This document shows, piece by piece, positions 30,363 to 32,957 of a DNA stretch of 32,957 nt. Each line of letters begins with the position of its first letter. The stretch's first letter is position 1. Location: NCBI GenBank assembly GCA_024222455.1, contig JAAEPD010000652.1, positions 1-32,957 on the forward strand, in the 5' to 3' direction. Below the pieces are notes generated by a model. The model did not search any database and was not told the origin of the DNA. It saw only the letters and a program-made list of their open reading frames with translations. Made by a program: the position numbers and the translations under genes. Source of the DNA: Aureispira sp. GTDB taxonomy: Bacteria > Bacteroidota > Bacteroidia > Chitinophagales > Saprospiraceae.

Positions 30363-31208
30363 ATGAAGGTTTATATATATATTATGGCTACTATCCTTTT
30401 TTTGGGGCTAGTGGCCTGCTCTGAGCAACAAACGACAACAGTATCCCAACCTATGGCTAGCGATACTACTATAGTAGATACACCTACTCCTCCTATCACG
30501 CCAATAAATATAGATACTCCTTCAAACTCTACTATTCTTAAGGCTTTAAATCCAAGAGATTTAATAGAAACTTACTTTGAAGATGCCCAATTTAAAAATG
30601 ATAAATCTGCTACTTATAAATACGAAGAGGAGCCTATGCAAGTCAACTATGTTGGAGAACAAAGCTACCAAGAAAATGGGATTGACTATGTCTTAACATT
30701 TTTTGAAAGTTTTAACTTGGATAAAAATGGTGAGCGAGACTGGGGCTGCCATGCTTGCTCTGGGAAATTGAGTATAGCTCAATTCCAAAAAGGAGAAAAG
30801 GGACTTACTCCTATTGATTTCACTTATGATTGCCCTTGTGGAACTGCAAATATGGGTGGTGTTTCGATTCCTAAAGTAGTTTTGATTGGCAATCGTCACT
30901 TTTTGGAGAAAAATGTAGGCGACATGGGCCAACGAATTAGTATAGAGTTATTGTATTATTATGATATAAAAGATTATAAAGAACTCCTAAAACTAACTGT
31001 AGCAGAAAGTAATGAAGGGGATGCACCAAGTAAAGAAGAAATGTATGCTTATGATGCTACAATAACTCACTATAAAGATGATTCTAAAAATATGATTACA
31101 GTACAATATACTGGAACTACTTATACTGATGATATGAGCATTATACCTCATAATAAAACGGAAACTTACACCTATAATTTAGAGAAACAAAAATTCATAA
31201 AAAAATGA
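30363..31208 (+). CDS. Lipoprotein within the two-component operon
   Basis: A 281-residue lipoprotein of unknown function. The signal ends in lipobox LVAC with Cys19, followed by a Thr/Pro-rich spacer (about 25-60). The folded part has a cysteine cluster, CHAC (about 126-129) and CPC (about 155-157), then beta-strand-rich sequence. The ATG directly abuts the kinase stop and its own TGA overlaps the next ATG (ATGA at 31205-31208), so translation is likely coupled throughout. Its placement suggests a partner or ligand-binding protein for the kinase's external TPR domain. That is inference. Confidence 0.75.
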   Translation: MKVYIYIMATILFLGLVACSEQQTTTVSQPMASDTTIVDTPTPPITPINIDTPSNSTILKALNPRDLIETYFEDAQFKNDKSATYKYEEEPMQVNYVGEQSYQENGIDYVLTFFESFNLDKNGERDWGCHACSGKLSIAQFQKGEKGLTPIDFTYDCPCGTANMGGVSIPKVVLIGNRHFLEKNVGDMGQRISIELLYYYDIKDYKELLKLTVAESNEGDAPSKEEMYAYDATITHYKDDSKNMITVQYTGTTYTDDMSIIPHNKTETYTYNLEKQKFIKK

Positions 31209-31774: not shown

Positions 31775-32518
31775 ATGATAAATGCAGTAATAATAGATGA
31801 CGAGCAAGATGCTCAGATTACGCTCATGCGTTTTGTACAAATGCATTGCCCCAATGTCAATGTTGTAGGAGTGGCAGGTGGTGTACAAGAAGGCCTAAAA
31901 TTATTGAGCAGCAAGGATGTTGATTTGGTCTTTTTGGATATAAAAATGAATGATGGGACTGGCTTTGACTTGCTCAAAAAGCTGCCTGAAATCAATTTTA
32001 ATCTGATCTTTACCACTGCCTATGATGAGTTTGCGCTCAAAGCGTTTAAATATAGTGCAATAGACTACTTGCTAAAACCTATAGATCCTATAGAATTGCA
32101 AGAGGCAACTCAACGTCTAGAAAAGAAAAAAGATAAAACTACTGCCTCTAGTGTAGATGGCTTATTTGAAATCTACAAAGAAAATAAGTTTGATAAAATA
32201 GCTATTCCATCTGTAGATGAGTTTCATTTTGTCCGAATGACAGATATTATACGCTGTGAAGCGAGCAGTAATTATACTATTATATATCTTAATACAGGCA
32301 AAAAAATAGTTGCTCCCAAAACCCTAAAAGAGTTTGAGGAGCTTTTGGCTCCAGAGGGCTTCTTCAGAGTGCATCAATCACATTTGATCAACCTAAAACA
32401 TACCAACCAATTCTTAAAAACTAAAAATCTGATTCGTATGTCAGATGGTTCGGAGGTAGAGGTTTCTAGACGTAAAAAGACCTTATTTATGGATTTAATC
32501 AATATGCGCAAGCTGTAG
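31775..32518 (+). CDS. LytTR-family response regulator
   Basis: A 247-residue cytosolic response regulator. The receiver domain (1-118) has the acidic pair Asp8-Asp9, phospho-acceptor Asp55 in VFLDIKM, Thr in FTTAYD and Lys in LLKPID. The LytTR DNA-binding domain (about 145-247) shows EASSNYTIIYLNTGK, the FFRVHQSHLINL motif and the terminal SRRKK. LytTR proteins bind imperfect direct repeats upstream of target genes; no target was identified by eye. It is the cognate partner of the kinase at 28398, from which it is separated by two lipoprotein genes. Confidence 0.92.
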   Translation: MINAVIIDDEQDAQITLMRFVQMHCPNVNVVGVAGGVQEGLKLLSSKDVDLVFLDIKMNDGTGFDLLKKLPEINFNLIFTTAYDEFALKAFKYSAIDYLLKPIDPIELQEATQRLEKKKDKTTASSVDGLFEIYKENKFDKIAIPSVDEFHFVRMTDIIRCEASSNYTIIYLNTGKKIVAPKTLKEFEELLAPEGFFRVHQSHLINLKHTNQFLKTKNLIRMSDGSEVEVSRRKKTLFMDLINMRKL

Positions 32519-32536
32519 TGCTTACCAAATACTACT

Positions 32537-32596
32537 CATAGGTATAGAAGTATAGATATACTATTTAATACAAATCTTAATACTTCTATATCTATG
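32537..32596 (+). promoter_or_regulatory. Long hairpin sequestering a start codon
   Basis: 32537-32553 pairs with 32580-32596 over 17 positions (one G·U). AGAT/ATCT (32554-32557 with 32574-32577) extends it inward past a two-base bulge. The right arm ends exactly with the ATG (32594-32596) of the lipoprotein gene. There is no T-run, so it is not a terminator. It lies 18 bases after the regulator stop and may control translation of the following gene. Confidence 0.55.
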
Positions 32597-32866
32597 AAAT
32601 ACTTAAGCTCTTTGGGATTGTTAGCCTCCTTATTTTATTATACTAGTTGTGCTTCTATAGAGACTGGTCAATTAGTTGGGGTTGCTCATAAAAATCTGAC
32701 TTGGTATCATACAGAAACAGTAGACACCAATCTAGCTGTACTTGACTATCACAATACCGTTTTCAGATATTATATACCTATACATTTGGTCAACCTAAGC
32801 ACCCCAGAAGATACACTTACCACCAATTCTGACCAAAAACTATATTACCTTCCTCCTGCTACTTAG
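32594..32866 (+). CDS. Small lipoprotein downstream of the response regulator
   Basis: A 90-residue lipoprotein: Met-Lys, hydrophobic segment, lipobox YTSC with Cys19. The remaining 70 residues are strand-rich and Tyr/Thr-rich, with no family I recognise. The only ATG is buried in a 17-bp hairpin (see 32537). It lies 75 bases after the regulator gene and may be its target or a further member of the same operon. A Pro-Pro-Ala-Thr end seems natural and the frame stops at TAG 32864-32866. Confidence 0.65.
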   Translation: MKYLSSLGLLASLFYYTSCASIETGQLVGVAHKNLTWYHTETVDTNLAVLDYHNTVFRYYIPIHLVNLSTPEDTLTTNSDQKLYYLPPAT

Positions 32867-32957
32867 GGATATTCAGAAGTAGTCTAAAGTATTGATATGT
32901 AGACAAATAGTGTTATATTTATAAAAACAAAACACCCCGCAAAGAGCGATAGGAAGC
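32867..32957. other. Right-end noncoding stretch
   Basis: An AT-rich tail with a weak GTCTA/TAGAC stem. The last bases (CACCCCGCAAAGAGCG) turn GC-rich and may be the left half of a terminator or RNA element cut by the window edge. Nothing more can be said. Confidence 0.3.

Follow-up and report, generated by a model that had tools for sequence, protein, structure and literature searches.

A long hairpin after a LytTR response regulator gene overlaps the start codon of a lipoprotein-like reading frame in Aureispira sp.

Introduction

Why does the start codon of a lipoprotein-like reading frame lie inside one arm of a long hairpin, just downstream of a response regulator gene? A preliminary description of this locus proposed a translational switch, for example a thermosensor, or a promoter inside the loop so that only short transcripts are translated. 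The window, that is, the whole stretch of DNA that was analyzed, is the entire contig C652 (32,957 bases) of a 7.76 Mb genome in 683 contigs. At the 3' end of the contig, the LytTR response regulator gene (31775-32518), a gap of 17 nt, the inverted repeat (32536-32597), and the open reading frame (ORF) (32594-32866) follow each other in this order. The features are as follows.

31775..32518, + strand: LytTR response regulator gene, 247 aa; Pfam Response_reg and LytTR above curated cut-offs; relatives L046-L051 at 72-81% identity
32536..32553, + strand: hairpin left arm, 18 nt; inverted-repeat pairing
32554..32579, + strand: hairpin loop, 26 nt, A+T-rich; four inner pairs possible across a bulge; without the exact Bacteroidota -7 motif
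32580..32597, + strand: hairpin right arm, 18 nt, including the ATG at 32594-32596; inverted-repeat pairing and RNA fold
32594..32866, + strand: lipoprotein-like ORF, 90 codons; stop TAG at the junction with an insertion sequence (IS); no Pfam match at E <= 0.1
32864..32957, + strand: IS left end, running off the contig end; same sequence closing contigs C590 and C92; 70% identity to the left end of the L201 element

Results

Structure and statistics of the hairpin

The hairpin had been described as a 17-bp inverted repeat containing a start codon, with four further inward pairs, directly after the response regulator gene. Pairing analysis, RNA folding, and shuffles confirmed the repeat. Seventeen pairs, including one G·U, join 32537-32553 to 32580-32596, and an outward pair, 32536/32597, extends the stem to 18 contiguous pairs (32536-32597; 1 G·U) around a loop of 26 nt. 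The four additional inner pairs were present in the RNA fold of 32537-32596, beyond a 2-nt bulge. The right arm was said to end precisely with the ATG; the ATG does lie inside this arm, but pairing continues one base past it (32597). The placement after the regulator gene also held, as the TAG stop codon at 32516-32518 is 17 nt before the stem.

The folding energy of 32537-32596 was -20.6 kcal/mol, compared to a shuffle mean of -6.94 (z -5.69), and was equalled by none of 200 shuffles. A wider fold of 122 nt (32519-32640) gave z -3.27 and was likewise equalled by 0 of 200 shuffles. When stems of at least 17 bp with at most 1 G·U and loops of 3-40 were searched for, they appeared in 1 of 150 dinucleotide shuffles of the entire window and in 2 of 20,000 shuffles of 32519-32660. 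The 18-bp stem is thus far beyond composition-matched chance.

Membership in a repeat or MITE family was rejected: the 102-nt hairpin region is single-copy, and apart from the region itself and its own inverted arm the best match in the own genome had E 0.37. A known RNA family was also rejected, since an Rfam search of the window gave nothing that reached the gathering scores.

Regarding the surroundings, the regulator gene and the lipoprotein-like ORF form one reading frame, parted by the TAG stop, then 25 sense codons, and then the ATG (32516-32596). Between the regulator stop and ATG 32594, no other in-frame ATG, GTG, or TTG was present. Further upstream, gene 30363-31208 sits between a TPR histidine kinase gene and the regulator gene; a search of 79 other genomes at E <= 0.001 gave no relative of it, and its own genome has a single distant paralogue (C56, 28%, E 6e-10).

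Post-stop hairpins in the genome

Long stems were counted in a genome sample of 432,957 bases, made up of the window and 20 further stretches of 20 kb each, with the longest non-overlapping ATG ORFs, uncurated, taken as genes. Perfect stems of at least 14 bp with at most 3 G·U and a loop of up to 40 were accepted. They were classed as post-stop at -6 to 60 nt after a stop codon and as start stems at -10 to 30 nt from a start. The sample contained 42 such stems, with 32 in the post-stop class, 5 within genes, and 2 by a start. Hairpins after stop codons are common here, a point that the preliminary description did not make. Hairpin 32536-32597 belongs both to the 32 post-stop and to the 2 start stems. 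In the only other start-overlapping stem (L192), the ORF start lies, as judged by eye, within a T-tailed terminator-like hairpin, and this start was probably misassigned.

Counting the present hairpin, the 32 post-stop stems had a median distance of 22.5 nt from the stop (IQR 8-32). At 17 nt, hairpin 32536-32597 lies shortly after the stop codon, as a terminator or other 3' hairpin would. Its 4 G-C pairs were ordinary, since 15 of the 32 have 4 or fewer. The loop of 26 nt was long against a median of 5, and loops of at least 20 nt occurred in 2 of the 32, this hairpin included. No T-tract of the kind expected of a terminator was found at the stem end or immediately past it. The T-tract score, a maximum of 3 T per 8 nt around the stem end, was the lowest among the 32, equal with one other. 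The length and position therefore fit the post-stop class, and the tail and loop do not. With a T-tract as poor as any in the post-stop class, the hairpin is doubtful as an intrinsic terminator. The separate terminator scan was limited to loops of 3-8 and hence blind to a stem with a 26-nt loop.

Related regulator loci

Six loci carried a regulator at 72-81% identity, and the next kept locus had 45%. Four are titled Aureispira (L046, L047, L048, and L051) and two Saprospiraceae (L049 and L050), and they span 5,976 to 10,741 bases each, with L046 offering only 232 nt after the stop. Within these limits, neither a relative of the lipoprotein (tblastn, E <= 1) nor a copy of the hairpin region (blastn, E <= 0.1) was detected. 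T-tailed stems followed the regulator stop at 82 nt in L046, 200 nt in L047, and 129 nt in L048, and their sequences were unrelated to the 32536-32597 hairpin. An additional stem of 20 bp with a 33-nt loop was present in L047, 42 nt after the stop. No perfect stem of at least 10 bp was found within 300 nt after the stop in L049-L051. The gene after the L048 regulator had its sole own-genome match on another contig (C192, 50% identity). On these observations, the 3' flank of the regulator gene turns over quickly.

As a separate observation, the T-tailed hairpins found 82-200 nt past the regulator stop in L046, L047, and L048 share a common AAGTCGTAAGTCGTA-type sequence.

Predicted burial of the start codon

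The accessibility of the ATG (32594-32596) was compared by folding prediction with gene starts of the same genome, covering 322 of 327 sampled genes (5 lacked sufficient flank). It was below that of all 322 starts, and the total energy was equal or lower at 3 of them. On a read-through RNA, the predicted probability of an unpaired ATG was 8e-4 at 37 C. When folding began instead at one of five start points chosen within the loop, this probability was 0.30-0.65.

The temperature dependence was predicted at ten temperatures. The probability of an unpaired ATG rose from 4e-4 at 30 C to 0.011 at 65 C, and it ranged from 3e-5 to 0.011 over 4-65 C. Therefore, the suggested thermosensor was rejected, as the start site is predicted to stay closed throughout. 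Of the proposed translational switch, the burial of the ATG on read-through RNA is supported by prediction and an opening by warming is not. Translational coupling was considered and likewise rejected: given the size of a ribosome footprint, a distance of 17 nt between the stop and the stem should leave hardly any contact with a ribosome that terminates there.

Bacteroidota are described as lacking Shine-Dalgarno sequences and as tuning translation by open start regions, and in F. johnsoniae the structure of the start region tunes initiation, which A at -3 favours (PMC6847099). The base at -3 of the lipoprotein-like ORF is T. Taken with its start-region structure, the facts reported there for F. 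johnsoniae suggest that a read-through RNA would be poorly translated.

Promoter motifs

If the arrangement acted through short transcripts, a promoter would be expected in or near the loop. The Bacteroidota promoter consensus is given as TTG-N18-22-TAnnTTTG (PMC7366714). Upstream of genes of this genome, the motif occurred 14 times in the sense direction and 11 times on the opposite strand, compared to 2.4 in base shuffles. In 32519-32593, the exact TAnnTTTG was absent from both strands, and the + strand contained no TTG. Sites with one mismatch do occur; the closest + strand -7 match of this kind is at 32589-32596 and overlaps the ATG. No sigma-70-like site was present on the + strand from 32519 to 32596. 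By motif search, the loop thus held no consensus match for a promoter that would yield RNA without the 5' arm, and the promoter proposed inside the loop found no motif support. The accompanying proposal that only short, loop-started transcripts are translated was supported in part: the five chosen loop starts are predicted to free the ATG largely, but the loop has no consensus promoter motif.

The lipoprotein-like frame and the insertion sequence

The ORF begins with MKYLSSLGLLASLFYYTSC, in which a signal peptide and a lipobox cysteine were recognized by eye. Its codon usage, 0.164 bits/codon, was ambiguous: scores as low were found in 7.7% of 168 accepted genes shorter than 900 nt, and scores as high in 7.8% of 90 shadow ORFs. 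Relatives were sought in three overlapping genome sets, each including the own genome. None was found at E <= 0.001 in 60 relatives (listed to E <= 1) or in 396 genomes of the order. The 398 family genomes (searched at E <= 0.05) gave one non-self match at E <= 0.001, in G292 (E 4.7e-4, 31% over 55 aa), with four internal stops. No relative was found in 72,556 plasmid records (E 0.1). Several weaker matches in the family set were leaders of long lipoproteins, for example in G095 (E 0.002, 52% over residues 3-33).

The leader SCASIETGQLVGV (32594-32692) resembles leaders of long lipoproteins in several relatives, and the likeness ends at about residue 33-37. Two of these long lipoproteins, when translated (416 and 423 aa), were GldK-like. 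The member of this family in the own genome begins with a comparable leader, and past about residue 33-37 the resemblance is lost.

The stop TAG of the ORF (32864-32866) is formed by the first three bases of the IS end. The sequence from 32864 is common to the ends of contigs C590 and C92, and its first 18 bases are also on C198. In another genome, L201 carries a 70% identical left end followed by a 452-aa transposase (Pfam DDE_Tnp_1_2 above cut-off), and at its far side this element carries the terminus again in inverted orientation, with 1 mismatch to the query. Given the transposase and inverted termini of L201 and the copies on C590 and C92, 32864-32957 was assigned as an IS left end. As C590 and C92 close with the same IS end, the contig probably breaks at this repeated element (32864-32957).

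Since the stop codon coincides with the first three bases of the IS, the lipoprotein frame is probably the 5' fragment of a gene interrupted by this element. As the native end of the lipoprotein gene is not in the window, the IS may, less probably, have inserted right at the end of the gene. Thus, of the lipoprotein gene announced in the preliminary description, the signal-peptide and lipobox leader is recognizable by eye, but the frame ends at the IS junction (32864) and is probably a fragment.

Two further observations concern this element. On C198 (L045), near position 2537, the same 18-base terminus is followed by a different sequence in which a T-tailed hairpin is possible by eye, which suggests that the genome contains another type of element, related to the first. 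In a related genome, 270 bp of L205 (1501-1770) lie between the IS terminus (0 mismatches) and its inverted copy (3 mismatches), with no listed ORF of at least 80 aa inside. This stretch resembles a MITE belonging to that IS family.

Discussion

The reading that we favour, and to which we give about an even chance, is that the hairpin is a 3'-end hairpin of the response regulator transcript that also keeps the next frame untranslated on read-through RNA. It would serve as the RNA end, a stabilizer, or a weak terminator of this transcript, being of a type that the genome seems often to place within about 60 nt of stop codons. As the next frame starts inside the right arm, translation of that frame would be blocked on an operon read-through RNA, if such RNA is made. 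This block would be passive insulation and not a sensed switch.

Like known post-stop terminators and 3' stem-loops, the hairpin is long, nearly perfect, and 17 nt after a stop; 32 of the 42 long stems in the sample (itself counted) are likewise post-stop. T-tailed hairpins at three of the six related regulator loci, with the additional 20-bp stem in L047, also speak for the favoured reading, as does a downstream frame that ends at the IS and has only one weak, stop-bearing match in the genomes searched. The hairpin is unlike the known post-stop structures in its 26-nt loop, its poor T-tract, and the start of another frame in its right arm. The T-tract (poorest, tied with one), the loop, and the lack of a perfect stem of at least 10 bp within 300 nt in L049-L051 all argue against this reading, and the exact overlap with a frame of good signal peptide is unusual, with one other overlap in the sample (L192).

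It is possible, though we consider it unlikely, that the stem was selected as a translational insulator comparable to that of the T4 lysozyme gene e, with the long RNA silent and translation confined to RNA that begins in the loop or right arm. In T4, a helix hides the gene e start codon on the longer transcripts that come from upstream, those from late promoters lack the 5' portion of this structure, and comparable structures have been predicted for related phages (PMC3014915). The present locus is alike in that, by prediction, the start codon lies in a stable helix on long RNA and RNA without the 5' arm would open. An ATG of lower predicted accessibility than all 322 sampled starts, a stem that covers the start exactly, and the predicted release of the ATG from the five chosen loop starts (0.30-0.65) all favour such an insulator, and with so poor a T-tract the stem need not be a terminator. 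However, T4 has a late promoter and the related-phage structures described in that source, whereas no promoter motif was found in the loop of hairpin 32536-32597: exact TAnnTTTG is missing from 32519-32593 and a sigma-70-like site from the + strand of 32519-32596. At E <= 0.001 the genomes searched gave no relative of the ORF other than the stop-bearing match in G292, and the ORF is seemingly cut by the IS. Its -3 base is T, whereas A favours initiation in F. johnsoniae (PMC6847099).

It is rather improbable that the hairpin is a neutral quasi-palindrome without function, lying in decaying, A+T-rich DNA next to an interrupted gene. The hairpin is single-copy in its genome and has no match in the 5,976 to 10,741 bases of each of the six related regulator loci, its arms are A+T-rich, and the adjoining frame ends at an IS, all of which would suit such an origin. 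Nevertheless, 18 bp is far beyond composition-matched chance, and the location matches the post-stop habit.

A combined version, in which the transcript-ending hairpin also locks the next lipoprotein gene and only RNA starting inside the hairpin is translated, as a counterpart of T4 gene e on a Bacteroidota chromosome, is decidedly improbable.

We consider it very improbable that the inverted arms, with centres about 44 bp apart, would form a DNA operator for a regulator, perhaps the LytTR protein encoded next to it. A near-perfect inverted repeat does adjoin a gene for a DNA-binding regulator. LytTR binding sites, however, are direct repeats, and the genome lacks the further good copies of the region that a regulon might be expected to have.

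An RNA thermosensor opening the start codon on warming is scarcely credible: the start codon in an A-U-rich stem resembles that of RNA thermometers, but the hairpin shows no predicted opening over 4-65 C (3e-5 to 0.011) and the window has no Rfam match at gathering scores.

A narrow search of open-access literature returned no published Bacteroidota case of this arrangement, from which absence is not claimed. The downstream frame is probably truncated by the IS, which calls for caution. If the stem is a selected lock, it would represent a start-codon insulator in a phylum without Shine-Dalgarno sequences, in which translation is tuned by open start regions (PMC6847099). More likely, it is an example of an ordinary post-stop hairpin overlapping the next frame.
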